64,000 nucleotides of DNA. Source: Patiriisocius marinus. GTDB taxonomy: Bacteria > Bacteroidota > Bacteroidia > Flavobacteriales > Flavobacteriaceae. The stretch lies in NCBI RefSeq assembly GCF_008974325.1, contig NZ_BKCG01000003.1:62001-126000 (forward strand), given 5' to 3'. Positions 14,287-35,183 of this stretch are shown here, piece by piece; the first letter of the stretch is position 1, and every line of letters begins with the position of its first letter. The notes beneath the pieces are model-generated. The model searched no databases. It had not been told where the DNA came from and saw only the letters and a program-made list of their open reading frames with translations. The translations under genes and the position numbers were made by a program.

Positions 14287-14333
14287 CAAAAATAACTTTA
14301 TTTAAAGTAGCGTTTGGTAACATTAGTTACCAA
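14287..14333 (-). promoter_or_regulatory. GTAAC-type operator and -7 box, tolC operon
   Basis: The near-perfect 20-bp palindrome TTGGTAACATTAGTTACCAA (14314-14333) has the GTA-N8-TAC geometry of Crp/Fnr-superfamily sites. Its centre (14323.5) is exactly 33 bp upstream of the centre of the -7 box TATTTTTG (14287-14294, minus strand), placing the operator near -40. No TTTG -33 element is present, which fits an activator-dependent promoter. Confidence 0.8.
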
Positions 14334-14334
14334 G

Positions 14335-14369
14335 AAAAAATGGCATTTATATAAAATATAAATGCCATT
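14335..14369 (-). terminator. Rho-independent terminator after SQR and 45-aa ORF
   Basis: Perfect 14-bp stem AATGGCATTTATAT / ATATAAATGCCATT with a 3-nt loop (14339-14369). On the minus strand it is followed by six T, so it ends the transcript that carries the SQR-like gene and the 45-aa ORF, just before the tolC operator. Confidence 0.85.
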
Positions 14370-14397
14370 AACCAACTAACCAAAACTGATAACCACA

Positions 14398-14535
14398 TCA
14401 GTTTACTTTTCTAGTGCCTCCGTGTCCTCCAGCTACAACTACCATTATTTTAATGCTTAAATAAATGAATTTGAAAAACTGAATGATGGGATTCATCATC
14501 TTAAATCTTTGATATTTTGATATTCTTTGTGTCAT
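14398..14535 (-). CDS. Small hydrophobic protein, 45 aa, GGHGGTR tail
   Basis: ATG-initiated ORF of 45 codons between the SQR-like gene and its terminator; a second start two codons before NPIIQFF would give 33 residues. The product has one hydrophobic helix (PIIQFFKFIYLSIKIMVVVA) followed by a glycine-rich GGHGGTRK tail. It ends 29 bp before a perfect terminator hairpin, as expected for a real last gene of an operon. I do not recognise the family with certainty. An inner-membrane location and a link to the neighbouring sulfide or efflux genes are inferences. Confidence 0.5.
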   Translation of the reverse strand: MTQRISKYQRFKMMNPIIQFFKFIYLSIKIMVVVAGGHGGTRKVN

Positions 14536-14625
14536 GTTTTCTGTATTAAAATTTCAGAATAAATTCTTATAAACCTTTTTCTACATTAAATAATCCCAAT
14601 TAAGGAACTAACCTTTTTTTGATTT

Positions 14626-14709
14626 GATTCCTATTCGGGAATCAACCTTTTTTGATGTGATTCCTATTCGGGAATCAACCTTTTTTGATGTGATTCCTAT
14701 TCGGGAATC
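14626..14709. repeat. Three tandem 33-bp copies of the SQR gene 3' end
   Basis: Three identical hairpins GATTCCTATTCGGGAATC start at 14626, 14659 and 14692, with a period of exactly 33 bp and the identical linker AACCTTTTTTGATGT. The last copy is the 3' end of the SQR-like gene and contains its stop codon. Read in the gene frame each copy encodes LIPE-stop, so the array consists of in-frame duplications downstream of the real stop. A degraded fourth unit may lie at 14605-14625. Confidence 0.9.
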
Positions 14710-16154
14710 AACCACCAAAAGGGTTTCATTTTTGCTTTATAGATAAAGGCGTAGTGGAGGGCTAATTTTAGCCAATGTCCTGCTAATCCAATTTCTCCAA
14801 AAGTTTTCCCTAATTTTCTGCCTTGCGTTTTGGGATATTTTTCATAATCTGGTACAATTGGGAATGTTGTAATACTAACACCACTTCCTTTTGTAATACC
14901 AAATCCTGCCGAAGCAATACAAGCAGCACCCATATTTCCTAAACTTCCTTTATGATGCAATGATACTTTACCACTTTTAATACTGTCTATAATATTATCT
15001 GCGACTAGTTTAGCCGTTATTCCTGATGGCATACCTGTTCTTGGTGGTGCAGGGGAGATAACCGTACCATTTTTACTTTTACGTGGTTTAGAGATTGCGT
15101 GTGGTGGTGCAAATGCAATACCTGGCGCAAAAATGTTACTGTAACTTGGATTTTGATAAGTTTCAGGCCAATCTTTTACAGACCATTCTTCATAAGGTTT
15201 AGCAGTATAATCTGCATCAACTATCATAAAACCATTAAAAAGCTTTGTAGTTATATCATTTTCATTTTTATCATAAGCTTTAAAACCGTGTCCTGAAAAA
15301 GACGGAATCAACATTGCAAAATCATATGCTTCTGTTTTAAATTCACCTTCTAAATTTTCATAGTGTGCAATTCCATCTTCAATTCTATTCACTCCAGCTC
15401 CAAGTATCCATTTTATATCTCTGTCTTCAAAAATCATTTCGACCATTTCATTCGACTTCATTGTCATATCTCCATAGCTCAACAACATTCCGTCCATCCC
15501 AAAATCGCCTAATTTATATTCGTTAGAGATCCAGGTTACTTCAGCCATATCACGTACTTTGTGTTTACGTAATTCTTGCTCAACATTTAATATGTATTCA
15601 AAAGCTGCACCTTGACAGGTTGACTTAGCGTGACCGGTTCCAATTAAAATTTTTGCTTTTTTACCATTTTTCATTTCTTGGATTAGGCTTTTTAGTCCAT
15701 CCCAAGCGTGATCTGCGTGTGTATAAGTACAGACTGAATATGTTTTGTTTTCTCCAGGAATTAAACCTTCGGTGGCTTCAAAATTTAGTCTTGGCCCCGT
15801 TGCATTTATTAAATAATCGTAAGTAATTTTTTCTTGTTTTCCTTTGTCCTTTCCTACAACGTATTCAGATAGTACATAAGGTTTCATTTCTGTTTTATCA
15901 CCTTCTGGATAAAAAGAAATAGCTTTTGCTTGCTTAAAATCGATATTTTTCCTTTTGTATAAAGGAGCAAGTGGGAACAAAATTTGTTCAGATTTCATTC
16001 TACCAATACCTACCCATATATTTGAAGGAATCCATTGGTAATTACTATTAGGAGACACTACTACAACTTCATGTTCTTTAGATAATTTTCTACGTAAATG
16101 TGCTGCTGAAACATGTCCAGAAATACCAGCTCCAAGAATAACTATTTTAGCCAT
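14697..16154 (-). CDS. NAD(P)/FAD-dependent oxidoreductase, sulfide:quinone oxidoreductase-like
   Basis: Flavoprotein of 485 residues with the N-terminal dinucleotide motif GAGISG (8-13) and a second Rossmann region. It resembles sulfide:quinone oxidoreductases, which pass electrons from sulfide to the quinone pool and release sulfane sulfur. Cys142 (YSVCTYTHADHA), Cys180 (STCQGAAFEY) and Cys412 (GAACIASAGFG) are candidates for the catalytic and persulfide cysteines. The C-terminus is amphipathic and hydrophobic (LALHYAFIYKAKMKPFWWLIPE), fitting membrane attachment. It has its own GTAAC-type operator and only a short leader. Assignment to a numbered SQR type is not possible by eye; a flavocytochrome c-type flavoprotein is the alternative. 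Confidence 0.8.
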   Translation of the reverse strand: MAKIVILGAGISGHVSAAHLRRKLSKEHEVVVVSPNSNYQWIPSNIWVGIGRMKSEQILFPLAPLYKRKNIDFKQAKAISFYPEGDKTEMKPYVLSEYVVGKDKGKQEKITYDYLINATGPRLNFEATEGLIPGENKTYSVCTYTHADHAWDGLKSLIQEMKNGKKAKILIGTGHAKSTCQGAAFEYILNVEQELRKHKVRDMAEVTWISNEYKLGDFGMDGMLLSYGDMTMKSNEMVEMIFEDRDIKWILGAGVNRIEDGIAHYENLEGEFKTEAYDFAMLIPSFSGHGFKAYDKNENDITTKLFNGFMIVDADYTAKPYEEWSVKDWPETYQNPSYSNIFAPGIAFAPPHAISKPRKSKNGTVISPAPPRTGMPSGITAKLVADNIIDSIKSGKVSLHHKGSLGNMGAACIASAGFGITKGSGVSITTFPIVPDYEKYPKTQGRKLGKTFGEIGLAGHWLKLALHYAFIYKAKMKPFWWLIPE

Positions 16155-16169
16155 TTATATATTTTTTTA

Positions 16170-16214
16170 TAAAGGTAATTTGCTAGTTAAGAGTTTACTG
16201 TAACCAAAGTTACA
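16170..16214 (-). promoter_or_regulatory. GTAAC-type operator and -7 box, SQR-like gene
   Basis: Palindrome TGTAACCAAAGTTACA (16199-16214) is centred at 16206.5, exactly 33 bp upstream of the centre of the minus-strand box TACCTTTA (16170-16177). The box lies only 15 bp before the ATG, so the leader is about 10 nt or less. Confidence 0.8.
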
Positions 16215-16296
16215 TAAGGGTTAATTAGTTTTTTCACCTCAATAAATGGTTTCTATTTACGCATTGATAATACTGAAATAGCACCTTTTTTTAAAA

Positions 16297-16758
16297 TTAA
16301 TCCTGAACAATAACTCTCGATTTCATGGTAATTTTAGAATTAATTGAATTTGAAATTAAACAAGCTTTTTCAGCCTTTTCAATGATACGTTCTGTTCGTT
16401 CTATTTTAGAAGTATTAGTTATAACAACTTCTGGAAAAAGTAACACTTCACTAATTACAAACTTGCCATCAACTTTTTCTAAAATACCTTTTGAATCGCA
16501 TTTAAAACTTTCGTATTCTAATTTTGAAAATTCAGCAATTGCTAAAAATGTTGTCATTAAACAACTACTTACTGCTGCTGTAAACAAATGTTCTGGTGAC
16601 CAAATGTTTGGAATCCCTCCTGGAAATTCTGGTGGAGTAGCAACTTCTAAACAATTTGATTGATTGGTTTCTTTATTAGTTAATTCTGGAGAACACATAA
16701 TTCCTTTTCTATCGTGTGTCCATTTTACATTCACATTGTATGTATGTTTTTCCATCAT
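16297..16758 (-). CDS. OsmC/Ohr family protein
   Basis: OsmC-family thiol peroxidase of 153 residues. The two conserved Cys are Cys66 in AAVSSCLMTTF and Cys133 in EKACLISNSI, with Glu56 in SPEHLF next to the first. The family reduces organic hydroperoxides, and some members act on organic persulfides, which would suit the neighbouring sulfide genes. Cytoplasmic. It is a single gene with its own promoter and a TGAT-N4-ATCA palindrome. Starting with MMEKHTY, it could also begin at the second Met. Confidence 0.9.
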   Translation of the reverse strand: MMEKHTYNVNVKWTHDRKGIMCSPELTNKETNQSNCLEVATPPEFPGGIPNIWSPEHLFTAAVSSCLMTTFLAIAEFSKLEYESFKCDSKGILEKVDGKFVISEVLLFPEVVITNTSKIERTERIIEKAEKACLISNSINSKITMKSRVIVQD

Positions 16759-16781
16759 CTTTTATTTGAAATAATTATTAT

Positions 16782-16827
16782 TAAAAGTAGTTGTAATCTG
16801 TTTGTTTATAACTGATTTATATCAGTT
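16782..16827 (-). promoter_or_regulatory. Fnr-like operator and -7 box, osmC
   Basis: Perfect 7-bp inverted repeat AACTGAT-TTAT-ATCAGTT (16810-16827), close to the Fnr consensus TTGAT-N4-ATCAA, is centred exactly 33 bp upstream of the minus-strand box TACTTTTA (16782-16789). It has the same geometry as the GTAAC sites but a different half-site. Confidence 0.65.
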
Positions 16828-16899
16828 TTGAGTAGAAATTTCAATCGTAAGTAACGCTAGTTTAAAGACTCCTAATTTTTATTAAAATATATACTAAAA

Positions 16900-16944
16900 A
16901 GTAACATTCGTCACATTTCTTTTAAAAATGGATTCTTAATTTTA
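16900..16944 (+). promoter_or_regulatory. GTAAC-type operator and -7 box, 38-aa gene
   Basis: AGTAACATTCGTCACA (16900-16915), with one half-site variant (GTCAC), is centred exactly 33 bp upstream of the plus-strand box TAATTTTA (16937-16944), which lies 25 bp before the ATG at 16970. Confidence 0.7.
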
Positions 16945-16969
16945 CTTAACTAAATTAAAAACAACCACT

Positions 16970-17086
16970 ATGGGAAGCAATTCAAATACAACACTTTATA
17001 TAGTTGCAGGAATTATTATTTTGCATTTTCTAGTTGGATTTATATGGCTTGCATATAAATTGACAAAGAAAAAAAACGATGAATAA
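16970..17086 (+). CDS. Small single-pass membrane protein, 38 aa
   Basis: ATG-initiated ORF of 38 codons encoding one clean transmembrane helix (YIVAGIIILHFLVGFIWLAY, about 10-29) followed by a basic tail KLTKKKNDE, so N-out/C-in topology is likely. It has a regulon-type operator and -7 box upstream and a terminator downstream, i.e. a complete transcription unit. It faces the cydAB operon tail to tail. Small subunits such as CydX and CcoS are of this size and shape, so a role with the cytochrome bd oxidase is a reasonable guess but is not shown by sequence. Confidence 0.7.
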   Translation: MGSNSNTTLYIVAGIIILHFLVGFIWLAYKLTKKKNDE

Positions 17087-17096
17087 CAACCAATTT

Positions 17097-17145
17097 AAAT
17101 GAACAATTATGTACTACTATATTACTTATTTGTTCATTTTTTTTT
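17097..17145 (+). terminator. Terminator of the 38-aa gene
   Basis: Stem AAATGAACAA / TTGTTCATTT with a 23-nt loop and a following T tract ending at 17145. It overlaps the 3' end of the convergent membrane-protein gene at 17126. Confidence 0.6.
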
Positions 17146-17422: not shown

Positions 17423-17445
17423 AACAGTTGTTTTAAAAGGTTTAA

Positions 17446-18522
17446 TTAATGTTCTCCATACCCAACGTCATCCATTTTACCTCTAAATACGCGATATTGA
17501 ATAAACATATAAATGGCAACCAATATTGCTGCGATAACAAACCAATATACTCCTACAGTCAATCCATACTCATCAGCAGCAACATTGTAAAGTGTTAGTG
17601 AAGGGTTTACATTATTAGTAGAAGGTAATACTTTAGGGAATATTGATGATACGGTTGAAACTAAACCTCCAAATAAAAATAGCGATGAAAACAAAAAACC
17701 TAAACCATCTTTCTTAAATGTTTTCACGTTGAATAATCCAAATATTCCTGTAAAAGTTATTAGCGGAAATATCCAAAGCCAAGGGTATTCCATAAAATTA
17801 TGAAATGGTTTAGGTTCAATAATATGCCAAATTGTTAATGAAAATATAACTAACGCTAATAGAACAAAGTTTAAGTTAAATATTACTTTTTTTAATTTTT
17901 GATTTAAACCTGAATTTGTTTTAAATATAATCCAGTTAGCTCCGTGAATTGCTAATGCTATTACGCCAATAACTCCTAGTAATAATGTAAACCAATCTAT
18001 AATACCAAGTTGTTCTGCTTGAGGACTAAAAGTAGTATTCCATAATGGTAGAAAGAAATAATGTGCTTCGTGAGTTGACACACCGTTTGTTACCATACCT
18101 AAATTAACACCCCTTACAATATTACCTAAAGCAATACCAAAAAATAAGGCTAATAGAAAACTAGAAATACCAAAAGCTTTATCCCAGATGGCTTCCCACA
18201 TTTTATTATGAACTAAACCTCTTAATTCAAGACCTATCGCTCTAAAAATTAGTAGCCATAAAATCATAATTAAAGGTAGATAAAAACCACTAAAAGAGGA
18301 AGCGTAAAGCGTAGGGAAAGCAAAAAATAAAACGCCTCCTACTGCAATAAGCCACACTTCGTTTGCATCCCAAAATGGACCAATAGCGTTAGTAATAGCT
18401 TTTTTATCTTTCTCTTTTTTCGCAAAAAATAAATGAATAATTCCTGCACCAAAATCGTAACCATCAAGAATTACGTAAATGGTTAACATTGTCATTAAAA
18501 CGATATACCAAAATAACTCCAT
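17446..18522 (-). CDS. cydB: Cytochrome bd ubiquinol oxidase subunit II
   Basis: Integral membrane subunit of 358 residues with about eight to nine helices. CydB signatures include the N-terminal WYIVLMTMLTIYVILDGYDFGAG, then GPFWDANEVWLIAVGGVLFFAFP and the AIGLELRG segment. With CydA it forms the high-affinity quinol oxidase that works at low oxygen and resists sulfide, NO and cyanide. The start is 2 bp from the cydA stop, so translation is coupled. Confidence 0.96.
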   Translation of the reverse strand: MELFWYIVLMTMLTIYVILDGYDFGAGIIHLFFAKKEKDKKAITNAIGPFWDANEVWLIAVGGVLFFAFPTLYASSFSGFYLPLIMILWLLIFRAIGLELRGLVHNKMWEAIWDKAFGISSFLLALFFGIALGNIVRGVNLGMVTNGVSTHEAHYFFLPLWNTTFSPQAEQLGIIDWFTLLLGVIGVIALAIHGANWIIFKTNSGLNQKLKKVIFNLNFVLLALVIFSLTIWHIIEPKPFHNFMEYPWLWIFPLITFTGIFGLFNVKTFKKDGLGFLFSSLFLFGGLVSTVSSIFPKVLPSTNNVNPSLTLYNVAADEYGLTVGVYWFVIAAILVAIYMFIQYRVFRGKMDDVGYGEH

Positions 18523-18524
18523 AA

Positions 18525-19859
18525 TTAGATGTGTTTAGTTGTTTCAGGTCCTTTATTAATAATCTTTCCTGCTAGCATGATAAATAATAGTCCTAATAGT
18601 AAATAAAGACCAATAAAACCAAGCAATGTAAATAGCGTATTTCCAGATGAAACTGTAGGTGAAATACCATCTGCAGTACGTAATAAGTTATAAACTAACC
18701 AAGGTTGTCGTCCAAGTTCTGCTGTATACCAGCCCGTAGTATTTGCTATGTACGGAAATGGTAACATGAAAAGTAGCAGCCATAAAATCCACTTAGTAGT
18801 GTATAATTTTTTACGATATAATTGAACACTAGCAATAAGCATTAATGCTATAAATATTGTTCCTAAGCCCACCATTATATGATATGCATAATATAATCCA
18901 GGAATATTAGTAGGGTAGACGCTTTCATCAAATTCATTAAGTCCTTTAATTTTGGCATCCCATCTTTGATAGGTTAAAAAACTGAGAATATTTGGTACTG
19001 CAATTTTATTATCAAGCTTTTTATTATCAACATCCGGTTGACCTATCAATATAATTTCAGAACCACCTTCTTCAGTTTCGAAAATACCTTCCATAGCTGC
19101 AAAAGTTACTGGCTGATATTCTATAACATTTTTAGCTGCTAAATCTCCCGTAGGGAATGCTACTAAAACACTTGAAACTAAACCAAACAATACTCCAGTT
19201 TTAACAAATAGTTTTCCAAAATCATTGTGCTTATTATTAAGTAAGTAAAAGGCTCCAATGGCAGCAACTACAAATGATGATGTAATTATAGATGCCATCT
19301 GGTTATGTATATAAGATGGTAAAAGCCAAGGGTTAGAAAATAAAGCTCCAAAATTATTGAGCACATACCTACCATTCTCTAGTATTTCATAACCAACAGG
19401 GTTTTGCATCCAAGAATGTGTAGCAATAATTAAATAACCACTTGCCCAAGATCCTAAAAAGACTAAAAAGCCGGTTATAAAATGTAGTTTTTGACCAAGA
19501 AGTTTTTCTCCAAATAAGAAGAGTCCTAAAAAGGATGATTCAAGAAAAAATGAAAACATTCCTTCCATTGCAAGGGTTTGACCAATGATTCCTCCAGTAA
19601 GTTCAGAAAATTTGGCCCAATTTGTCCCAAATTGGAATTCCATGGGGATACCAGTTACTACACCCATAGCAAAGTTGAGTGCGAAAATCTTCATCCAAAA
19701 TTTGGCAGCATCATTATATTTATCAATTTTAGTTCTAAGAAATCTCCATTTAAAATAGACTACCATCAGGGATAATCCCATTGTTAATTGAGGAAATAAG
19801 TAGTGAAATGTGATGGTAAATGCAAATTGCATCCTATCGTAAAAGAGCATATCTTCCAT
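18525..19859 (-). CDS. cydA: Cytochrome bd ubiquinol oxidase subunit I
   Basis: Heme-bearing subunit of 444 residues. Heme ligands are visible as His19 (TFHYLFPQLTMG), His185 (SYIHNQ) and Met329 (YHIMVG); Glu99 and Glu107 of the proton path are in AMEGMFSFFLES, and GRQPW is at 383-387. The Q loop is short, as in the smaller CydA class. It is the first gene of cydA-cydB-17126, driven by a -7 box TATCTTTG with an operator upstream. Confidence 0.97.
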   Translation of the reverse strand: MEDMLFYDRMQFAFTITFHYLFPQLTMGLSLMVVYFKWRFLRTKIDKYNDAAKFWMKIFALNFAMGVVTGIPMEFQFGTNWAKFSELTGGIIGQTLAMEGMFSFFLESSFLGLFLFGEKLLGQKLHFITGFLVFLGSWASGYLIIATHSWMQNPVGYEILENGRYVLNNFGALFSNPWLLPSYIHNQMASIITSSFVVAAIGAFYLLNNKHNDFGKLFVKTGVLFGLVSSVLVAFPTGDLAAKNVIEYQPVTFAAMEGIFETEEGGSEIILIGQPDVDNKKLDNKIAVPNILSFLTYQRWDAKIKGLNEFDESVYPTNIPGLYYAYHIMVGLGTIFIALMLIASVQLYRKKLYTTKWILWLLLFMLPFPYIANTTGWYTAELGRQPWLVYNLLRTADGISPTVSSGNTLFTLLGFIGLYLLLGLLFIMLAGKIINKGPETTKHI

Positions 19860-19894
19860 ACTAAAACAACTTTATTACTGGTTATTTAATAATA

Positions 19895-19940
19895 CAAAGA
19901 TACAGTACAGAACTTTAGATAATATGTAACATAGGTTGCA
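19895..19940 (-). promoter_or_regulatory. GTAAC-type operator and -7 box, cydAB
   Basis: TGTAACATAGGTTGCA (19925-19940), with one half-site changed to GTTGC, is centred 34 bp upstream of the centre of the exact TAnnTTTG box TATCTTTG (19895-19902, minus strand). It shares the 236-bp divergent region with the separate operator of the copper receptor operon. Confidence 0.65.
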
Positions 19941-20046: not shown

Positions 20047-20091
20047 GGTGACATTTGTTACCCTTTAAGAAGAAAAAGCAGTTTATTTTTG
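20047..20091 (+). promoter_or_regulatory. GTAAC-type operator and -7 box, copper receptor operon
   Basis: GGTGACATTTGTTACC (20047-20062) is centred exactly 33 bp upstream of the exact box TATTTTTG (20084-20091, plus strand). The box ends 4 bp before the GTG start of the next gene. Confidence 0.8.
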
Positions 20092-20546: not shown

Positions 20547-22655
20547 ATGAAACTTACATATTTAGTGCTTCTAAGCACACTAATGTCTACTTGTCTATTT
20601 GCGCAAGAGATATCTAAAAAAGAACAAGATTCTACTGCTAAAAAAGTAGTTGAGTTAAATACCGTTATTATTACTGGAAAAAGTACATCTGATCCAGTTC
20701 TAACAACATTAAAAACTGATTTAACAAAAGATGTTGTCCAACCAATAAATGTAGCCGATTTATTTAGCGACTTTAATGGATTCTCTTTAATAAAGCGAGG
20801 TAATTATGCGATAGATCCATCATTTAGAGCTTCCCAATACGAACAATTAAATATTCAGTTTGATGGAGGTACAAAAGCAATGCATGCTTGCCCTAACCGT
20901 ATGGACCCAATTACTACGCATGTAGTCCCAGAAGATATTGAACGTATTGAGGTTATTAAAGGTCCTTATACCGTTAGATACGGAGCTACTTTTGGAGGGA
21001 TAATAAACTTAGTAACTCAAAAACCACAGCAGTTAGGTGATGGTTTTCACGGAACAGTGAGTAGTGGTTATGAAACTAACGGAAATTCGCTTGTAACGTC
21101 GCTAAAACTTCATCAAATAACTGACAAATATGATATTACTGCTAATGCTGGGTATCGTGATTTTGGAAATTATAAAGATGGAGATGGGACTGAAATTCCA
21201 TCAGCATTTAGAAGTTTAGATTATGGTTTAAGATTAGGGTATAATATTACCGAAACTCAAAGAGTGCAAGCACACTGGCGTCAATCGTTTGGGCGTGATG
21301 TATTGCACGCAGGATTGCCAATGGATACTGATGAAGACAATAGTTCTATTTTGTCTTTAGATTATAAAATATCAGATTTAAGCGGTTTAATAGATGAAGT
21401 AAATGCAAAAATATATTATTCGTTTGTAGATCATATTATGTCTAATGCTAGAAGAACAACATCGATGACAACCGATGCTTTATCAAGTATTGACGCTTCA
21501 ACAACAGGAGGGAAGCTAGAATTAAAAATGAAACCTACTGAAAAGTGGATTTTATATGGTGGTTTAGATGCTGTACTTATCGCTAGAGATGGTGGAAGAA
21601 CTCGCTCTGTAAAAAGAAATATGATGGGAGAATTATTACCAGAACCAGTGGTGTTTCAAGATAAAATTTGGCAAGATTCATTTGTGAATGATTATGGATT
21701 ATTTGCTGAAAATAAATATGCAATATCTGATAAAACTATTCTAACGGCAGGGATTCGTTATGATTTAGTAGTTTCAGATATTCAAGATCCTGAAGCAGAT
21801 TTTCAGGAATTGTATTCAAATTTAAATCAGCGTGAAGAACATAATATTTCGGCTACGGTTTCAGGAAAACATCAAATTTCAGAAAATAAAACTCTTGAAG
21901 TTGCTTTTGGTCGTGGTGTTCGTTCTGCAAATATGATTGAACGTTATATTAATCATTTTACAGTAGGGCAAGATTCGTATGAATATGTAGGAAATCCAAA
22001 TTTAGATGCCGAAGTTAATAACCAATTTGAAATAGGGTTTAAAGGTCATAAGCGTTTTGATACTACTTTTGAAGCATTGCGCTATAGTATTTCAGGGTAC
22101 TATTCTATTTATGAGAATTATATTGTTGCCGTGATTGATCCAACTTTAGAGAGAAAATTTATGCCAACTGCAACTCCGCAAGAGGTTAAACGATTTGTAA
22201 ATATTGATAAAGCATATAAAACAGGTTTTGAAGCTGAAGCAGTAATCGATTTTGCTTCATATTTTAACTTTATTACAGGTGTATCTTATATTTACGCCAA
22301 AAATAGTGATTTAGATGAGTCTTTACCTTTAACGCCGCCTTTGGTTACTCGTTTAGGTTTAGGGTTTGATAAAGATTTTTATTGGGCTTCATTAAATTAT
22401 ATAATTACATCTAAACAAGACAATATTGCTCTTAGTTTTGGTGAGCAAGAAACTTCAGGATATGAAACCTTAGATTTAAAAATAGGGGCTAAGCCTTTTA
22501 AGGATTTGAGTGTAGGTTTTGCAGTATTAAATTTATTTGATGAAACGTATAATAACCATTTAAATTTCTCATTTAAAAATCAAGCAGATTTTGATAGTGT
22601 TCCCATTAACGATCCAGGAAGAAACTTCTCATTTTTTGTGAAGTATGATTTTTAA
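20547..22655 (+). CDS. TonB-dependent copper receptor (OprC/NosA-like)
   Basis: Outer-membrane TonB-dependent receptor of 702 residues: signal peptide to about residue 20 (STCLFAQ), plug domain from about 35 to 160 with IERIEVIKGPYTVRYG, and a beta-barrel ending in a Phe (FFVKYDF). In the plug HACPNRMDP gives Cys115 and Met119 (CxxxM), and the barrel has His296-Ile-Met298 (HxM). OprC uses a CxxxM-HxM site for copper, so copper uptake is the likely function. It does not resemble SusC or siderophore receptors with a CarboxypepD domain. Confidence 0.85.
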   Translation: MKLTYLVLLSTLMSTCLFAQEISKKEQDSTAKKVVELNTVIITGKSTSDPVLTTLKTDLTKDVVQPINVADLFSDFNGFSLIKRGNYAIDPSFRASQYEQLNIQFDGGTKAMHACPNRMDPITTHVVPEDIERIEVIKGPYTVRYGATFGGIINLVTQKPQQLGDGFHGTVSSGYETNGNSLVTSLKLHQITDKYDITANAGYRDFGNYKDGDGTEIPSAFRSLDYGLRLGYNITETQRVQAHWRQSFGRDVLHAGLPMDTDEDNSSILSLDYKISDLSGLIDEVNAKIYYSFVDHIMSNARRTTSMTTDALSSIDASTTGGKLELKMKPTEKWILYGGLDAVLIARDGGRTRSVKRNMMGELLPEPVVFQDKIWQDSFVNDYGLFAENKYAISDKTILTAGIRYDLVVSDIQDPEADFQELYSNLNQREEHNISATVSGKHQISENKTLEVAFGRGVRSANMIERYINHFTVGQDSYEYVGNPNLDAEVNNQFEIGFKGHKRFDTTFEALRYSISGYYSIYENYIVAVIDPTLERKFMPTATPQEVKRFVNIDKAYKTGFEAEAVIDFASYFNFITGVSYIYAKNSDLDESLPLTPPLVTRLGLGFDKDFYWASLNYIITSKQDNIALSFGEQETSGYETLDLKIGAKPFKDLSVGFAVLNLFDETYNNHLNFSFKNQADFDSVPINDPGRNFSFFVKYDF

Positions 22656-22718: not shown

Positions 22719-23192
22719 CTAGTTTTGATATGCGGAAAGCATCCATACTAATTTTTCTTGTTGTACAATATAATCACTCATTAATGCTGCAGTTCCTTCA
22801 TCATTAGCATCACCAGCCAAATTTAATATTGCTCGTTCTTTTATAAGTAAGATGCTTAAAGTCTTTAATATGCTTTTAATAGCATCTTCACCATCGGTAA
22901 CATTCTCTTTTGCTTTTATATCACTCATTTCAATGTATTGTGCAAAAGTATGTACTGGAGTAGCACTTAAGGTAAGAACGCGCTCTGCAATTTCATCAAC
23001 TTTTTCTAATGCATCATTATATAATTCTTCAAATTTTAAATGTAATTCGAAAAAATTCTTTCCTTTAATATTCCAATGAAATCCTCTAAGATTCATATAA
23101 AACAATTGATAATTTGCTAATAAATCGTTTAGTTCTTTTGCGGTAGTTTGAGATGCTATTACATCTAAGCCAATGTTATTCTTATTTTCCAT
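22719..23192 (-). CDS. dps: Dps family DNA-binding ferritin
   Basis: Dodecameric mini-ferritin of 157 residues that oxidises and stores iron and protects DNA from peroxide. The ferroxidase ligands keep the family spacing: His39 (RGFHWNIKG), His51 (ELHLKFEELYND), Asp66 and Glu70 (EKVDEIAE). The start at MENKNNIG (23192) is chosen over an upstream in-frame start because it follows the previous stop by 7 bp and matches family length. It is the last gene of the peroxiredoxin, persulfide-dioxygenase-like, dps operon. Confidence 0.93.
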   Translation of the reverse strand: MENKNNIGLDVIASQTTAKELNDLLANYQLFYMNLRGFHWNIKGKNFFELHLKFEELYNDALEKVDEIAERVLTLSATPVHTFAQYIEMSDIKAKENVTDGEDAIKSILKTLSILLIKERAILNLAGDANDEGTAALMSDYIVQQEKLVWMLSAYQN

Positions 23193-23199
23193 AATTATA

Positions 23200-24528
23200 T
23201 TATTTAAAATTATTAATGTCGTCACTTAAATCATATACGGTAGTATTTTTTAATATATTTTCTAGAATACTACTTCCTGCAGCACTTCTATAACCACCAG
23301 CACAATGAACAACTACAGGCTTGTTTATAGGTATGTTATTTGCATTTTCTCTTAACTCGTTTAAAGGGTATGATTTTGCAGTGTCAAAAAAGCGCTCTTC
23401 ATTAACCTCACTGGTGTTTCTTATATCTATGATGGTATAGTTTTCTGGGTTTTCTTTAAAATCTACCAAATTTAATTTTTCGGTTTTTAAAAGATTTTCT
23501 TCTGAAATAGTAATTACTTGTGTCACTTGCTTTTCATAGCCAATTTTTGCAACTCTATTTAAAATATAATTTTTCTGCTCTTCTGAATCTATTACTAGTG
23601 TAAATGGTTCATTAGGCTGTACAATTGCTCCTAGCCAAGTTTCAAATTTTTCAGTTTCAGAAACACCCATTATGTTAATACTTCCTGATAAATGTCCCTT
23701 TTTAAAATCTGCTTCATCACGTATATCTACAATTAAACCTTTGGCATTTTCACTATTTTTAAATGGAATACTTTCTATTGAAGGTTTTAAACTTTCGGCT
23801 CCTGCCTTGTTAGTATCTACATCAAAACCAAAATATGAAGGTATAAATGGCTGCCCATCTAGTATGGTATTCATAAATTCTTCTTTGGTTTGTTTTTTAA
23901 AAGCCCAATTGCCTAAGCGTTCATTTCCAAGCGTGCTGCTATTTGCTTCACTTAAATTTTTACCACACAATGATCCTGCTCCGTGAGCTGGATATACTAA
24001 AGCATTGTCTGGCAAGTTGTTAAATTTTGTTGTAATCGTATTGTACATCATGTTGGCAAGTTCTTCACGTTTTGCTTTCATGTTACCAGCTTTTTCACGT
24101 AAATCAGGCCTTCCTACATCACCAATAAATAGTGTGTCTCCTGTAAATAATGCAGTTTTGTCTTTATTTGTTGCTACAATGGTAATACTGTCTGGTGAGT
24201 GTCCTGGCGTGTTTATAGCTTTTAGAGTAATATCTCCTATTGTGATTGAGTCGCCGTCATCAAAAGCTTTGTGAGGGTAATCTGCACCTAATTTTTCACT
24301 GTTATAAATTGTTGCTCCAGTTTCTTTATGAATTTGTAAATGAGAGCTCACAAAATCTGCGTGTGGATGAGTTTCAATAACTGCAATTATAGTAGCATTA
24401 TTTACTTTAGCAAAATCATAATACGCTTTTGGATCACGTTCTGGATCTATTACCGCCATTTCACCATTACTTACAATTGCATAAGAATAGTGGGCAAGAG
24501 GTTTGTATTCAAATTGTTTTATATTCAT
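23200..24528 (-). CDS. MBL-fold persulfide dioxygenase-like protein with two rhodanese domains
   Basis: Protein of 442 residues from ATG 24528. The metallo-beta-lactamase part (about 1-235) has the ETHE1/CstB-like iron ligands His54, His56 (THPHADF), His110 (NTPGHSPDS) and Asp131 (FTGDTLFIGDVGRPD). Two rhodanese domains follow (about 255-345 and 350-442). The second has the active Cys409 in VHCAGGYRSA; the first lacks a Cys at the matching place and is probably structural. Such fusions oxidise or transfer sulfane sulfur made by sulfide:quinone oxidoreductase. Its gene lies between a peroxiredoxin and dps. A weak stem-loop (GGCTTT/AAAGCC) sits in the 52-bp gap upstream. Confidence 0.88.
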   Translation of the reverse strand: MNIKQFEYKPLAHYSYAIVSNGEMAVIDPERDPKAYYDFAKVNNATIIAVIETHPHADFVSSHLQIHKETGATIYNSEKLGADYPHKAFDDGDSITIGDITLKAINTPGHSPDSITIVATNKDKTALFTGDTLFIGDVGRPDLREKAGNMKAKREELANMMYNTITTKFNNLPDNALVYPAHGAGSLCGKNLSEANSSTLGNERLGNWAFKKQTKEEFMNTILDGQPFIPSYFGFDVDTNKAGAESLKPSIESIPFKNSENAKGLIVDIRDEADFKKGHLSGSINIMGVSETEKFETWLGAIVQPNEPFTLVIDSEEQKNYILNRVAKIGYEKQVTQVITISEENLLKTEKLNLVDFKENPENYTIIDIRNTSEVNEERFFDTAKSYPLNELRENANNIPINKPVVVHCAGGYRSAAGSSILENILKNTTVYDLSDDINNFK

Positions 24529-24580
24529 AATAAATAAATTTAATAAGGCTTTAGTAAATATACCAAAGCCCTTTGTTAAA

Positions 24581-25246
24581 TTAGATATCTTTTTTAGCAA
24601 GATACCAAGTAATTTTCTCTATAGATTTATCTTCAAGACGTTGGTTTAGAGCGTCTAATGTTTTAGGTGGTGGACAAATTGCTTTGTCTCCTCTTTTCCA
24701 ATCTAGCGGCATTGCCACTTTGTGTTCATCAGACATTTGAAGCGCATCTAATGCTCTTAATATTTCATCCATATTTCTACCTACATTTAGAGGGTAGTAC
24801 ATTACAAGACGTATTTTTTTAGATGGATCTATAAAGAATACGGCTCTTACAGCTGCAGTCTCACTTTCATTAGGCTGTAGCATTCCGTATAATTTTGATA
24901 CTTTCATGTCAATATCTGCAATTATTGGAAAGTCAAAATAAACTCCTGTATTTTCTCTTACATTTTGTACCCAACCTAAATGTGCATGAATGCTATCAAT
25001 ACTTAATCCTAATAACTCAGTATTAAGTGCATCAAATTCAGATTTTCTTACAGCAAAACCACTCATTTCGGTTGTACAAACTGGTGTAAAATCTGCTGGG
25101 TGAGAAAACAAAACAATCCATTTGTCTTTAGCAAATTCTGACATTTTTATTTTACCTTTTGTAGTAACAGCTTCAAAATCTGGTGCTGTATCTCCAATTC
25201 TAGGCATTGAAATAACTTGTTCTGGTAATAAAATTTCCTTATCCAT
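24581..25246 (-). CDS. Peroxiredoxin, Prx6-like
   Basis: AhpC/TSA-family peroxidase of 221 residues of the Prx6/1-Cys-like group. The peroxidatic Cys57 is in DFTPVCTTEMSGF. The long C-terminal extension with RAVFFIDPSKKIRLVMYYP and GRNMDEILRALDALQ is typical of that group. An additional Cys lies in KAICPPPKTLD and is absent from the paralog at 34457. It reduces peroxides in the cytoplasm. It is the first gene of the Prx, PDO-rhodanese, Dps operon, with an operator and -7 box upstream. Confidence 0.95.
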   Translation of the reverse strand: MDKEILLPEQVISMPRIGDTAPDFEAVTTKGKIKMSEFAKDKWIVLFSHPADFTPVCTTEMSGFAVRKSEFDALNTELLGLSIDSIHAHLGWVQNVRENTGVYFDFPIIADIDMKVSKLYGMLQPNESETAAVRAVFFIDPSKKIRLVMYYPLNVGRNMDEILRALDALQMSDEHKVAMPLDWKRGDKAICPPPKTLDALNQRLEDKSIEKITWYLAKKDI

Positions 25247-25279: not shown

Positions 25280-25324
25280 TAAAGATACACTATGAGTTGA
25301 GTGCTTTAAGTGACTAAGGTTACA
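25280..25324 (-). promoter_or_regulatory. GTAAC-type operator and -7 box, peroxiredoxin-PDO-dps operon
   Basis: AGTGACTAAGGTTACA (25309-25324) is centred exactly 33 bp upstream of the minus-strand box TATCTTTA (25280-25287). Confidence 0.75.
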
Positions 25325-30100: not shown

Positions 30101-31470
30101 TGTCCAAAAATGGCAGAATTCATCATTTTTGATGCGCCATTAAGAGTAATAGAATCTTTTAAAAGCTGACCTTCTGTTTTAGAGAGTGTAGTAATTTCAG
30201 TTTTATTTTGAGTTATTTTAAAGGCTATAAATTCAACAATAATAACTGCTCCGTCTATAATGATTCCAAAATCAATAGCACCTAAACTCATTAAATTAGC
30301 ATCAACACCAAATACGTACATTAATGATAGAGCAAACAATAGGGTTAAAGGTATTACTGATGCGACTAACAATCCTGAACGTAGATTTCCTAATAATAGA
30401 ACCACTACAAAAATTACAATAAGGCAGCCTAAAATTAAATTTTCGCTTACTGTAAAAGTTGTTTTTGCTATTAAATCACTCCGGTCTAGAAATGCGTTAA
30501 TAAAAACACCTTCAGGTAATGATTTTGAGATAGAAGCTACACGCTCTTTTACAGCTTCAATTACTTTTTTAGAGTTAGCATCTTTGAGCATCATTACTTG
30601 CCCAAGTACTTTTTCGCCTTCTCCATTTCCCGTGATAGCACCAAAACGAATAGCATTTCCGAAACCGACTTTTGCTACATCTTTAATGTAAATGGGAATC
30701 CCATTTATATTTATAACTACAATGTTTTCAATGTCTTCTAAGGATGTTACTAAACCCTCGCCACGTATAAAATAAGCTTGATTTACTTTTTCAATATAAC
30801 CACCTCCAGATATACTATTATTCTGTTCAAGAGCTGTAAATATTTCATTAGCCGAAATATTCATAGCGTTTAACTTGTCAGTATTAATTGCAACTTCGTA
30901 TTGTTTTAAAAAACCTCCCCAAGTATTTACTTCTACCACTCCAGGAATTCCTGAAAGTTGACGTTTTACTACCCAATCTTGAATAGTGCGAAGATCTTCA
31001 GCAGTGTATTTATTTTTAAATTCTGGTTCTACATCTAGAATGTATTGGTAAATTTCACCCAAACCTGTTGTTATTGGCCCCATTTCTGGTGAGCCAAAAC
31101 CTTCAGGAATTTTCTCTGAAGCCGATTTGATTTTTTCAGCAATTAGTTGCCTTGGTAAATAGGTTCCCATATTGTCTTCAAAAACAATAGTAACAACTGA
31201 TAAACCAAACTTTGATACTGAACGAATTTCAAGTACACCCGGTAAATTTGCCATTTCTAGCTCAACTGGATAAGTGATAAATTTCTCCATATCTTGTGTA
31301 GAAAGATTACGAGAAGTAGTGATTACTTGAACTTGATTGTTCGTTACATCTGGTACAGCACCAATGGGTATTTGTGATAAAGAGTACAACCCAAATCCAA
31401 TAATTAGCGTTGTAAATAAAAGAATAACAAATTTATTCTTAATACTGAAGTTTATAATATATGATAGCAT
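27142..31470 (-). CDS. CusA/CzcA heavy-metal RND pump fused to TolC-like channel
   Basis: Fusion protein of 1442 residues. Residues 1 to about 1040 form a complete heavy-metal RND pump: 12 helices, IPIGAVPDVTNNQVQVIT near the start, the HME signature GAIDFGIIIDGAVIIVEF, and the periplasmic PIEMRFNELITGVRADIAIKIFG typical of CzcA/CusA. Residues about 1066-1442 form a TolC-like outer-membrane factor with coiled-coil hairpins. Between them lies a signal-peptide-like stretch (KKGIYSATILVILFSVNAQA, up to residue 1065), so the channel may be cut free by signal peptidase. Metal specificity (Cu, Ag, Zn, Co) cannot be fixed; the neighbouring genes favour copper. Such fusions are known in Bacteroidota. 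Confidence 0.92.
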   Translation of the reverse strand: MLSYIINFSIKNKFVILLFTTLIIGFGLYSLSQIPIGAVPDVTNNQVQVITTSRNLSTQDMEKFITYPVELEMANLPGVLEIRSVSKFGLSVVTIVFEDNMGTYLPRQLIAEKIKSASEKIPEGFGSPEMGPITTGLGEIYQYILDVEPEFKNKYTAEDLRTIQDWVVKRQLSGIPGVVEVNTWGGFLKQYEVAINTDKLNAMNISANEIFTALEQNNSISGGGYIEKVNQAYFIRGEGLVTSLEDIENIVVININGIPIYIKDVAKVGFGNAIRFGAITGNGEGEKVLGQVMMLKDANSKKVIEAVKERVASISKSLPEGVFINAFLDRSDLIAKTTFTVSENLILGCLIVIFVVVLLLGNLRSGLLVASVIPLTLLFALSLMYVFGVDANLMSLGAIDFGIIIDGAVIIVEFIAFKITQNKTEITTLSKTEGQLLKDSITLNGASKMMNSAIFGQLIILIVFIPILSLSGVEGKMFKPMALTFSFALIGAMILCFTYVPVVASMFLKPSNVTDKNISVRLMKWLNKIYEPVIDWALKSKKIVLSIALVLLAGATFLYTTMGAEFVPTLDEGDFVIQPVLKTGTSLSNTVKITTEIEKILLKEFPEVKQVVTRIGAAEVPTDPMSMEESDVIIVLNPKSEWTSAKTKDELADKFKEALAIIPGMEVEFTQPIEMRFNELITGVRADIAIKIFGDDLDILAKKGNEIGRLIEGVAGAADISVEKIAGLPEMSVQYNRAKIARYGLNIQELNDMISMGFAGKTAGSVFEGEKRFDLVVRLDKSKRQDIEHLKNLYIDVPTGGKIPLSELATITYQKGAAKISRDDTRRRIVVGVNVRNRDLQSVVDDVQRLINKNIQLPTGYTITYGGQFENLQSAKSRLMIAVPIALILIFVLLYFAFKSVKEALMIYSAIPLAAVGGILLLWMRDLPFSISAGVGFIALFGIAVLNGIVLIEHFKELEKEGFESIEALIKQGTKDRLRAVLLTASAAALGFLPMAISTNAGAEVQRPLATVVIGGLITATLLTLVVLPVLYAYLSKRKSKKYNSKKGIYSATILVILFSVNAQAQQEPLNLEQLIPIAIENNMGLKTSELEVTRVDALINSAFSFDKTEVFYQFDENNQAFNNLPLRVFGVQQDIKFPTVYFSEKKLNQAHSKVASSSYEIDKKKIERELTIAYYDYQIASKKEETYMRLDSLFTNFSEIAARRFELGETNYLEKITAASKQKLLSMKYAQAQKDVLLSYTTLLKIVQVDEAISIEIEDSKKVELLKLEINNSPEISYYENRIVMLAAERRFEKQKLLPDISLNYFQGTNSQLNGSLYGYQIGLKIPILFGGQSSKIKASKIAENIAKAQSSEYEVQLRSKFNKLSINLTQLQETLNYYENEGEALSSEILKTANGSFRNGEIDFYQYIQSLESAYEIQLDHLEKLKEYNKTVISINYLTF

Positions 31471-31548
31471 TTTTCATAAAATAATCAATGTGAATAGCGC
31501 CCAACTTTTTAAAAAGTATAGGTGCTTAAATAAATTTAATCTGATTAA

Positions 31549-31947: not shown

Positions 31948-31974
31948 GATTTAAATATACTTATTTTAGTTAAA

Positions 31975-32343: not shown

Positions 32344-32383
32344 AATAGTTGTATTAAGTGGTTTTACAAATGTGAAATAGTTG

Positions 32384-33409: not shown

Positions 33410-33415
33410 AATACA

Positions 33416-33664
33416 TTATTTATAAAATTTACGAATATTCCTTTTGACATACAAAAATCGAATAAGACCAATAAAAAACAGGATAGGACCAATTAATATT
33501 AATAAAAATCCAACCCATTTGATTTCTTGAAGAATGTCTAATTTAATAATTGCAAATCCAGAACTTAAAAAGACAATAAATGACCTAAAATAGGCTAAAA
33601 ATGTACGTTCATTTGCTAGTCGAGTACGTTCTATTGCTAATTTGTCTGTAGTTTTAAGTTCCAT
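33416..33664 (-). CDS. DUF202 (YidH) membrane protein
   Basis: Protein of 82 residues matching DUF202: LAIERTRLANERTFLAYFRS (the conserved Arg-rich N-terminal motif) followed by two helices (about 28-45 and 50-72). The family is widespread, found in inner membranes, and has no established biochemical function. Spacing of 8 bp from the HMA gene and 6 bp to the diheme lipoprotein shows it is within the operon. Confidence 0.92.
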   Translation of the reverse strand: MELKTTDKLAIERTRLANERTFLAYFRSFIVFLSSGFAIIKLDILQEIKWVGFLLILIGPILFFIGLIRFLYVKRNIRKFYK

Positions 33665-33672
33665 AGTAGTTG

Positions 33673-33939
33673 CTAATTAAATTTACCTGTTGCGCAACTT
33701 ACAAAAGATTTTGCTTTACTAAGTATTTTGTTTTCGACACCTTCAGGTGGGTATCCCATTTTAATAAGATTAATTTCAGCTAGTGCTAAATCATCTTCAG
33801 TCTCGTAATTAAATGATACAATCGATGTTTCAGGGTCAACTTTAATGTCACTAATTCCTTGTAATATAGCTAAGCGTGTAGTTATAGTATTTCCACAACC
33901 ACCACATTTTAAGTTTTGTACTGTTATATCAGTTTTCAT
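33673..33939 (-). CDS. Heavy-metal-associated (HMA) domain protein
   Basis: Protein of 88 residues starting MKTDITVQNLKCGGCGNTI, with the HMA fold and a CGGC pair in place of the usual CxxC (Cys12 and Cys15), suited to Cu(I) or Zn(II). A third Cys lies near the end (SFVSCATG). The first in-frame start upstream would overlap the rhodanese gene; ATG 33939 leaves 5 bp. It is likely a cytoplasmic metal chaperone or buffer for the operon. Confidence 0.87.
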   Translation of the reverse strand: MKTDITVQNLKCGGCGNTITTRLAILQGISDIKVDPETSIVSFNYETEDDLALAEINLIKMGYPPEGVENKILSKAKSFVSCATGKFN

Positions 33940-33944
33940 AAGTA

Positions 33945-34319
33945 TTATTTTTTGAAAGGCCAACTCATGTAGCCGCCCTTTAAATCGTATATTTTAGTGA
34001 ACCCCATCGCTATAAGTTTTGCAGCTGCTTTTTGACTTCGTGCGCCAGAACGACAAAAAAGATATACAGGTTGTTCTTTATTTAATTTTTCAAAGTTAGT
34101 GTTGAAATGTTCTTTTTGAAAAAAATCTATGTTTAATGCCTTGCCAATTGTTCCTTGATTATATTCATTTGCGGTACGAACGTCTACAAGTTGTATGTTT
34201 TCAGTATTTATTGCAGATTGATATTCCGAAGGATTTAATATTTTAATAGCATCAGTTTGTTGTGCTTTTGATCCAAAGAGTGAACTTAAAAAAGTCATAA
34301 TTAGTAATAGGTTTTTCAT
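33945..34319 (-). CDS. Exported single-domain rhodanese
   Basis: Rhodanese-like sulfurtransferase of 124 residues with a signal peptide (MKNLLLIMTFLSSLFGSKAQ, cut after KAQ). The domain shows QLVDVRTANEYNQGTIGKALNID and the active-site loop YLFCRSGARS with Cys89. Export means it would handle sulfane sulfur in the periplasm. It is the first gene of the long operon running down to cusB, with a near-perfect operator and -7 box. Confidence 0.92.
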   Translation of the reverse strand: MKNLLLIMTFLSSLFGSKAQQTDAIKILNPSEYQSAINTENIQLVDVRTANEYNQGTIGKALNIDFFQKEHFNTNFEKLNKEQPVYLFCRSGARSQKAAAKLIAMGFTKIYDLKGGYMSWPFKK

Positions 34320-34337
34320 TTATTAATTTTACTACAG

Positions 34338-34382
34338 TAAAACTACTCCTTTAATTTCTAGATTAATGTAACTTAAGTTACC
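34338..34382 (-). promoter_or_regulatory. GTAAC-type operator and -7 box, rhodanese-to-cusB operon
   Basis: TGTAACTTAAGTTACC (34367-34382) contains the perfect 14-bp palindrome GTAACTTAAGTTAC. Its centre is exactly 33 bp upstream of the minus-strand box TAGTTTTA (34338-34345), 18 bp before the ATG. Confidence 0.8.
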
Positions 34383-34390
34383 GTACACTA

Positions 34391-34420
34391 TAAAAAAAGC
34401 GACGATTTCTCGCCGCTTTA
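34391..34420 (-). terminator. Rho-independent terminator of second peroxiredoxin gene
   Basis: Minus-strand hairpin AAAGCGGCGA / TCGTCGCTTT (one G-U pair) with a GAAA loop, followed by a run of T. It separates the peroxiredoxin unit from the downstream operon operator. Confidence 0.85.
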
Positions 34421-34456
34421 TTTTATCTAACCTCAACTAAAAAATAAATACGTCGA

Positions 34457-35116
34457 TTATAATGATTTTTTGGCTAGATAAAAATCTACTTTTTCACAAG
34501 TATCATCTGCGATACGTGCATTCATTTCGTCTAATGTTTTTGGTGGTGGGATTATAACTTTATCACCTTTTTTCCAATCTAATGGCATTGCTACGCTATG
34601 TTTATCTGAAATTTGAAGTGCTTCAAGTGCTCTTAAAATTTCATCCATATTTCTACCTACATTAAGAGGATAGTACATTATTAAGCGAATTTTCTTTTTA
34701 GGATCTATAAAGAATACAGCTCTTACTGCTGCAGTTTCACTTTCATTAGGTTGTAACATTCCATAGCGTTTAGATACTTTCATATCTATATCTGCAATGA
34801 TTGGAAAATCAAAATAGACACCTGTTTTTTCACGTACATTATTAACCCATCCTAAATGTGAGTGAATACTATCAATGCTTAATCCTAATAATTCCGTATT
34901 CAATGCTGTAAACTCATCTTGACGAAGAGCGAAACCACTCATTTCAGTTGTACACACAGGAGTAAAATCTGCTGGATGTGAAAACATTACAGTCCATTTG
35001 TCTTTTGCAAAAGTTGAAAACTGAATATCTCCTTTAGTTGTTTTTGCTTTAAAATCGGGTGCTTGATCTCCAATTCTTGGCATTGGATATACACTTATTG
35101 TTTCAGTATTTTCCAT
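34457..35116 (-). CDS. Peroxiredoxin, Prx6-like, second copy
   Basis: Close paralog of the peroxiredoxin at 24581, 219 residues, with the peroxidatic Cys55 in DFTPVCTTEMSGF and the same long C-terminal extension. It differs near the C-terminus: the Cys of the first copy's KAICPPP is Ile here, while DDTCEKV carries a Cys not seen in the other copy. It is monocistronic, with its own operator upstream and terminator downstream. Confidence 0.95.
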   Translation of the reverse strand: MENTETISVYPMPRIGDQAPDFKAKTTKGDIQFSTFAKDKWTVMFSHPADFTPVCTTEMSGFALRQDEFTALNTELLGLSIDSIHSHLGWVNNVREKTGVYFDFPIIADIDMKVSKRYGMLQPNESETAAVRAVFFIDPKKKIRLIMYYPLNVGRNMDEILRALEALQISDKHSVAMPLDWKKGDKVIIPPPKTLDEMNARIADDTCEKVDFYLAKKSL

Positions 35117-35138
35117 TGTATATGTTTTATTTATAAGG

Positions 35139-35183
35139 TAAAATTAAAAATAGAGAGACATGTTTACAGTAACTATTGTTACA
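35139..35183 (-). promoter_or_regulatory. GTAAC-type operator and -7 box, second peroxiredoxin
   Basis: AGTAACTATTGTTACA (35168-35183), with two perfect half-sites, is centred exactly 33 bp upstream of the minus-strand box TAATTTTA (35139-35146). The rest of the gap up to 35359 shows no second operator for the divergent CotH gene. Confidence 0.8.

Follow-up and report, generated by a model that had tools for sequence, protein, structure and literature searches.

NtcA, a protein of the Crp/Fnr superfamily, acts at class II sites centred near -41.5; in the ilvG promoter its site lies 22 nt from the -10 box, and that of glnA is similar (PMC3898017). For HcpR2, the Crp/Fnr regulator of hcp, the palindrome GTAACnnnnGTTAC was published in 2005 (Rodionov; PMC1274295). 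Here we describe eight predicted operators with the palindrome GTAAC-N4-GTTAC in a 64,000-nt stretch of Patiriisocius marinus DNA (contig NZ_BKCG01000003.1, positions 62,001 to 126,000; hereafter the window), together with P0001, a Crp/Fnr protein encoded elsewhere in the genome. On comparative-genomic grounds, the eight sites and their conservation are a real conserved regulon with a likely regulator, and in many Bacteroidota the genes for detoxifying sulfide and peroxide appear to be turned on via this one fixed-distance sequence. We consider it likely that the palindromes are operators of a P0001-type class II activator of sulfide/persulfide detoxification, its own operon included, the signal most probably being sulfane sulfur.

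The proposed system resembles NtcA in its GTA-N8-TAC core, its class II position and the R-V-x-V-x-R pattern of the recognition helix. It differs in that P0001 scores 39.3 bits against an NtcA equivalog cut-off of 244.95, and in that the P0001 set consists mostly of sulfur genes, whereas NtcA exerts nitrogen control with 2-oxoglutarate (PMC3898017). The operator is identical to that of HcpR2, but HcpR2 has Pro at CRP position 181 where 45/46 members of the P0001 family have Val (PMC1274295). The initial annotation of this DNA knew of no description of the regulon; the palindrome was in print for HcpR2 and hcp, so the operator sequence is not new.

The cst operon of Staphylococcus contains TauE, a persulfide dioxygenase (PDO)-rhodanese and sulfide:quinone oxidoreductase (SQR). 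In Staphylococcus aureus, CstR provides persulfide-responsive control of this sulfur-detoxification operon, as we propose for the P0001 set; CstR, however, is a CsoR-like repressor, whereas P0001 is a Crp/Fnr protein with sites at class II spacing (PMC9774590). FisR of Cupriavidus, which has three conserved cysteines, activates sulfide oxidation in response to sulfane sulfur, but it belongs to the Fis family and is sigma-54-dependent (PMC9774590). Sulfane-sulfur-sensing regulators named in papers on the subject include CstR, SqrR, BigR, PigS, FisR, OxyR, CsoR and MarR-type proteins. In word searches, 'FNR' is absent from PMC9774590 and 'CRP' stands in its references only, and neither word is found in PMC12423496, PMC11211675 or PMC13295329. 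Our literature search, which was largely blind to the spelling Crp/Fnr and could miss such a report, found no description of the regulon or of a Crp/Fnr persulfide sensor; within these limits, the function of the regulator family and the sulfur regulon look new.

Predicted operators and their spacing

The full pattern consists of GTAAC-N4-GTTAC, a gap of 22 or 23 nt (N22 or N23) and a TAnnTTT[G/A] box. Sites were called with no or one mismatch, two being allowed for the ortholog of a 38-aa gene in the congener G006, with place and spacing fixed. Ten palindromes of the window have at most one mismatch and eight of them are followed by the box. These eight 14-mers, four exact and four with one mismatch, begin at 14317, 16200, 16901, 19926, 20048, 25310, 34368 and 35169. 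All stand where the initial annotation had seen a palindrome upstream of a transcription unit, each just 5' of its gene, with the box ending 4-35 nt 5' of the start codon. The annotation had spoken of one- or two-base variants: variants do exist, but none of the eight exceeds one mismatch. The gap is N22 in seven sites and N23 in the cydAB site, matching the centre-to-centre distances of 33 bp and 34 bp claimed for them. Among the 1024 possible half-sites, GTAAC was the most frequent at N22/23 before a box in the window (4 exact sites; runner-up, 1; mean, 0.006), and with one half-site position off it was found at 8 sites before a box. The palindromes at 7465 and 32003, each with one mismatch, lack a -7 box at N22/23 and are not counted in the regulon.

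On the minus strand, the predicted operators of the tolC-MFP-RND run (14317..14330; GTAACTAATGTTAC, N22, TATTTTTG), of the SQR gene (16200..16213; GTAACTTTGGTTAC, N22, TACCTTTA) and of the rhodanese-to-cusB run (34368..34381; GTAACTTAAGTTAC, N22, TAGTTTTA) are kept in G006. On the same strand, the cydAB site (19926..19939; GCAACCTATGTTAC, N23, TATCTTTG) retains its GCAAC half-site and N23 in G006, and the site of the peroxiredoxin-PDO-Dps genes (25310..25323; GTAACCTTAGTCAC, N22, TATCTTTA) has an exact palindrome there. The site of the second peroxiredoxin gene (35169..35182, minus strand; GTAACAATAGTTAC, N22, TAATTTTA) precedes a gene without a separate ortholog in the G006 stretch. On the plus strand, the 38-aa gene has a site at 16901..16914 (GTAACATTCGTCAC, N22, TAATTTTA), which in G006 reads ATAACATTGGTCAC, with two mismatches and equal spacing; that of a 122-aa gene and a TonB-dependent receptor gene (20048..20061; GTGACATTTGTTAC, N22, TATTTTTG) retains its GTGAC half-site in G006. 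The window gene order is largely retained in G006, and conservation before orthologs, a check proposed with the initial annotation, was found for all seven comparable genes, at the same place and spacing. No TTTG element at -33 stands out in a profile of 90 distinct sites, which had been picked by motif and box; TTG was present at gaps 18-22 in 0/17 palindrome promoters versus 5/47 control promoters, a control rate so low that it discriminates little. The missing element, which a class II activated promoter would not need, was accordingly rejected as evidence for activation.

The 3.56-Mb genome contains 11 exact palindromes versus 6 copies of the reversed pattern, and 4 of the 11 are within the window (binomial p 3e-5). 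Eight precede genes with the box, which at C5:151982 carries one mismatch; the remaining three, which lack a box, lie within open reading frames (414, 577 and 1289 codons). The mismatch-free full pattern is present at 6 places, every one a promoter; the frequency in coding DNA had been named as a possible objection, and in this genome an exact palindrome together with the box is seen at promoters only. Four additional site-bearing promoters are located outside the window: those of a second Dps gene (PF00210; contig C3, L014:7823), of the DUF983-crp operon that encodes P0001 (C5:150052, one of the six mismatch-free places), of a TauE/SafE exporter gene (C5:151120, L013:8121-8134; N23) and of a metallo-beta-lactamase-rhodanese (PDO-rhodanese) gene (C5:151982; box TAATTTAG), the last two genes being neighbours downstream of crp. 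By these criteria the regulon would comprise about 12 promoters. A one-mismatch site at C6:178495 was not counted, as no large open reading frame starts near it in the orientation of the box.

The site-bearing sulfur genes of the genome are those for SQR, two PDO-rhodanese enzymes, rhodanese and TauE/SafE, and the rhodanese run extends to an HMA protein and cusAB-type efflux. The other predicted targets are two peroxiredoxins, two Dps proteins, cydAB, the TolC/RND run, the 122-aa protein with the TonB receptor, DUF983-crp and the 38-aa protein.

The candidate regulator and its distribution

The likely regulator gene, which the initial annotation had placed outside the window, was found on contig C5 (C5:150497-151120). 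The motif heads its operon, a check proposed in that annotation for a Crp/Fnr gene; since the DUF983 and Crp/Fnr frames overlap by 17 bases, the C5:150052 site most likely controls the Crp/Fnr gene, and the candidate regulator would thus govern its own expression. The 3' end of the regulator gene runs into the predicted operator of TauE/SafE, so that the TAA stop codon of the regulator gene forms part of a GTAAC half-site; such a stop-codon/operator overlap is also seen at position 6624 of several loci, such as L080 and L088.

P0001 is a 208-aa protein that matches PF00027 with 37.0 bits (cut-off 27.5) and PF13545 with 24.7 bits, just below the cut-off of 27. Pfam, the AlphaFold model (mean predicted local distance difference test, pLDDT, 86; predicted template-modelling score 0.62) and Foldseek matches to 3dv8, CRP, FNR and NtcA all place it in the Crp/Fnr superfamily, and among solved sequences it is nearest to NtcA and to 3dv8, a Crp/Fnr protein of Eubacterium rectale. 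In a tree with six PgRsp-like Porphyromonas proteins and four other Crp/Fnr proteins of P. marinus, 46 family members formed one well-supported clade (100/99) apart from these comparison proteins; the tree contains long branches, for which the program gave a warning.

The recognition helix TSRVVISR of P0001 aligns with STRVTVTR of NtcA, R182, R187 and V183 standing opposite R, R and V. In the alignment of the 46 members, R182, V184 and R187 are invariant and V183 is replaced only once, by Ile. R182, V183 and R187 correspond to CRP positions 180, 181 and 185, and a GTAAC half-site, rather than TTGAT or TGTGA, is consistent with Val replacing Glu-181. The same three positions are discussed in PMC1274295, where a similar argument is made for Pro-181 of HcpR2. 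Cys77 is present in 46/46 members, and Cys83 and Cys84 in 45/46. Sensors of the CstR, SqrR and FisR type have conserved cysteines that form polysulfide bridges, and the three cysteines conserved here might do likewise. In the alignment, the Cys77-Cys84 segment lies opposite the loop that contributes to the effector pocket in NtcA and CRP; judged from this and from the structure of CRP, the segment probably forms the effector pocket.

PgRsp of Porphyromonas gingivalis is a related Crp/Fnr protein of 207 aa with one matching cysteine, for which 3DV8 served as modelling template; it binds its own promoter in an electrophoretic mobility shift assay (PMC6955866). The words 'consensus' and 'binding site' are absent from the main text of that paper. 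PgRsp is distinguished by Cys76, Met78 and His85, whereas P0001 has CAM at 77-79, no matching His and an additional CC pair. PgRsp was considered as an ortholog on the basis of Cys76-x-Met78 and rejected, as a search of Porphyromonas showed PgRsp-type proteins to be more distant: five proteins with the C76, M78, H85 fingerprint are 32-33% identical to the regulator of Porphyromonas loveana and lack the CC pair. The recognition helix of nine PgRsp-like proteins reads TARAVVSR in eight and TARVVISR in one.

The motif was then followed in 55 regulator-bearing loci from named genomes, mostly Flavobacteriaceae, with a few Saprospiraceae, a Fluviicola, P. loveana and unplaced metagenome-assembled genomes; being related, these loci do not give independent counts, and the scan was biased towards close relatives by its peptide patterns. 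GTAAC-N4-GTTAC was the first of 1024 half-sites, with 112 copies in 49/55 loci (second, GCTTT, 46; mean, 1.1), while other half-site gaps gave at most 4 copies each. Counting each palindrome once, the box was present at 93/112 palindromes, 91 at N22 and 2 at N23, versus 0/134 copies of the six next commonest palindromes. N23 had been considered as a second spacing class on account of 15 TTTR boxes, but most of these arise when the palindrome overlapping the regulator gene's 3' end is read in antisense, conserved codons there resembling the box. Palindromes without a box include L121:6629, L123:6631, L124:6641 and L125:6640, and four stand directly after the regulator gene in Flavobacterium, where other promoter forms may exist.

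The expectation that related Flavobacteriaceae would carry the pattern was borne out, since it recurs in related genera. In a sample of 39 genomes, P. marinus included, the exact full pattern was found 46 times versus 2 for the reversed pattern, in 17/24 genomes with a homolog of P0001 (E<=1e-15) versus 0/15 without; a stricter threshold set post hoc (E<1e-48) gave proportions of 16/19 and 1/20 (p 4e-7). In an order-wide sample of 79 genomes, P. marinus again included, the pattern was found at 28 places versus 1 for the reversed pattern, in 12 genomes, all of them among the 37 with a homolog (E<=1e-40) and none among the 42 without (p 3.6e-5).

The first gene behind each of 133 sites (at most one mismatch) in the 55 loci was assigned by BLAST to a panel from the P. 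marinus genome. As the loci were fetched around the regulator, its neighbours are over-counted in the result: TauE/SafE 33, PDO-rhodanese 16, DUF983 15, rhodanese 12, PDOb 12, second peroxiredoxin (Prx2) 8, SQR 5, regulator 4, TolC 2 and OsmC 1, with 25 having no panel match. Of these 25, 14 are the antisense artefact, and five others that were scanned encode a sulfate permease, a Sulf_transp protein, a Cons_hypoth698 protein (YeiH-type), a YgaP-like membrane domain and DUF2490.

In G006, a stretch of 36 kb holds both the window-type cluster and the regulator block, which follows in the same cluster. In P. loveana, the neighbours of the regulator are not sulfur genes by reading of the locus, and within about 6 kb of it there is no exact palindrome, nor a one-mismatch palindrome with a box; in the whole 2.3-Mb genome only two full-pattern matches with at most one mismatch were found, before TauE/SafE and PDO-rhodanese. 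An unlinked regulator with two sites at sulfur genes is the best evidence for trans action and for a sulfur core. P. loveana (L127, L138, L141) was the sole source of a CC-type regulator among 26 Porphyromonas genomes searched; ten other Porphyromonas genomes have homologs 32-35% identical, and the nine that were read all lack the CC pair. The CC-type regulator may have been gained in P. loveana or lost in other Porphyromonas.

Mechanism, signal and alternative readings

The idea of a Crp/Fnr regulon with the class II geometry of NtcA, put forward in the initial annotation, is thus supported by sequence tests, and the spacing, judged from the boxes, fits a site centred near -41.5. We infer that dimeric P0001 would bind the palindrome, with 22 bp between it and the downstream -7 box just as for NtcA at class II promoters, and would contact RNA polymerase and help it to start transcription. 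The sulfur genes so activated would oxidise, transfer or export sulfide-derived sulfur; genes for peroxide and iron protection, cytochrome bd oxidase, efflux pumps and the TonB receptor would also be activated, and P0001 would activate its own operon. The signal would arise when sulfide is oxidised, as sulfane sulfur (persulfide or polysulfide) sensed by Cys77, Cys83 and Cys84. A more specific proposal has in our judgement an even chance of being right: this Bacteroidota Crp/Fnr family would be a dedicated sulfane-sulfur sensor in which a three-cysteine site replaces the cyclic-nucleotide pocket, it would run a counterpart of the cst operon as a class II activator, and NtcA-type DNA recognition would occur on a separate branch of the superfamily. 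If true, persulfide sensing would have its first demonstrated case among Crp/Fnr proteins, and the switch for sulfide/persulfide defence would be named for many Flavobacteriaceae of marine origin and for some Bacteroidota outside that family. The unnamed DUF983, DUF2490 and 38-aa genes would be tied to sulfur stress, a phylum with unusual promoters would have a clear operator with fixed spacing, and residue 181 (Glu in CRP, Pro in HcpR2, Val in NtcA and P0001) would have a test case in Crp/Fnr specificity.

Several observations weigh against the proposal of a sulfane-sulfur-responsive activator. The AlphaFold model is least sure at the cysteine segment (block pLDDT 65 and 63), and the Foldseek TM-scores to known structures are only about 0.5-0.6. 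No exact palindrome is present in 6/55 regulator loci, and 19/112 palindromes have no box. The exact full pattern is absent from 3/19 genomes with a close homolog (E<1e-48), and G020 has a site with only a 34% identical homolog; some genomes are shared between samples, and related genomes are not independent. At the order level, 25/37 homolog-bearing genomes have no exact site, so that either sites are degenerate or distant homologs read other sites. Finally, efflux pumps, an HMA protein and a TonB receptor among the targets mean that copper or redox could be the signal.

This last point leads to the main rival explanation, which we regard as rather unlikely: the same regulator and regulon would respond to Cu(I), to haem or redox state, or to nitric oxide or peroxide, acting on the cysteines or on a bound haem. 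The targets in the window, which include RND efflux with an HMA-domain protein, the TonB receptor, cytochrome bd oxidase and the two peroxiredoxins, would suit such signals, and the related PgRsp binds haem and affects oxidative-stress genes (PMC6955866). However, the targets that recur outside the genus in the 133-site tally are mostly sulfur genes, the P. loveana sites stand before TauE/SafE and PDO-rhodanese only, and 9/9 PgRsp-like Porphyromonas proteins read are without the Cys83-Cys84 pair.

It is improbable that P0001 acts instead as a repressor in the way of CstR and SqrR, blocking transcription from the palindrome until displaced by an inducer. CstR, SqrR and BigR are indeed repressors (PMC9774590), but the N22 gap in 91/93 palindrome-box pairs puts the palindrome immediately ahead of the core promoter, where class II activators bind, and one exact spacing is hardly needed by a repressor.

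That the sites are read by another Crp/Fnr protein, for instance one of HcpR2 type with R180-P181, is still less probable. The printed HcpR2 palindrome is the same (PMC1274295), the genome has 12 PF00027 matches, and a protein encoded on contig C12 (L004) has R-P at positions 180-181, its homologs being weakly tied to the motif (3/5 versus 9/74 genomes, p 0.02). These homologs, however, are present in 5/79 genomes and in just 3/12 motif-bearing ones, and contig C12 has neither an exact palindrome nor a full-pattern place with 0-2 mismatches. A profile search of the P. marinus genome for hcp (PF03063) gave no match, while 5/14 control genomes were positive. HcpR2 and the C12 protein were rejected as readers of the sites on account of the missing hcp gene and the distribution of L004.

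A chance or promoter-linked repeat of no regulatory meaning can be dismissed almost completely, for although the reversed pattern outnumbers the motif in the genome when three mismatches are allowed (122+99 versus 78+67 matches), which marks weak matches as noise, hence the use of 0-1 mismatches, the ranks, controls, conservation and co-occurrence at 0-1 mismatches are all contrary to it.

Genes behind the predicted operators

The TolC-like outer membrane efflux gene (12955..14289, minus strand, as the longest open reading frame; PF02321) has 78% identity in G006, and its likely ATG is 21 nt past the box, giving 436 aa. The SQR-like protein (14697..16154, minus strand) has sulfide-quinone reductases as its best PDB matches (E 3.6e-33). 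An OsmC gene (16297-16758), located upstream of the SQR site, is not counted among the targets in this genome. The 38-aa protein (16970..17086, plus strand), encoded near cydAB and with its own predicted operator, contains one hydrophobic stretch (MGSNSNTTLYIV...) and is 73% identical in G006. Cytochrome bd oxidase is encoded at 17446..19859 on the minus strand, by cydA (18525-19859; PF01654) and cydB (17446-18522; PF02322). On the plus strand, the TonB-dependent receptor (20547..22655; PF00593, PF07715) had been given a copper role in the initial annotation, a label found there only.

The peroxiredoxin gene (24581..25246; PF00578, PF10417) is followed on the minus strand by a metallo-beta-lactamase/rhodanese fusion of the PDO type (23200..24600; PF00753 and PF00581) and by a Dps-like ferritin gene (22719..23225; PF00210). 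The second peroxiredoxin gene (34457..35116, minus strand) has the same two domains, PF00578 and PF10417. The rhodanese gene (33945..34319, minus strand; PF00581) heads a same-strand gene run that, from 34319 down to 25986, is probably one operon. In the window, the CusA-type pump (27142-31470, minus strand; 1442 aa) carries an outer-membrane efflux protein as a C-terminal fusion: ACR_tran covers 5-1035 and OEP starts from 1265, and the G006 match covers 1443 columns.

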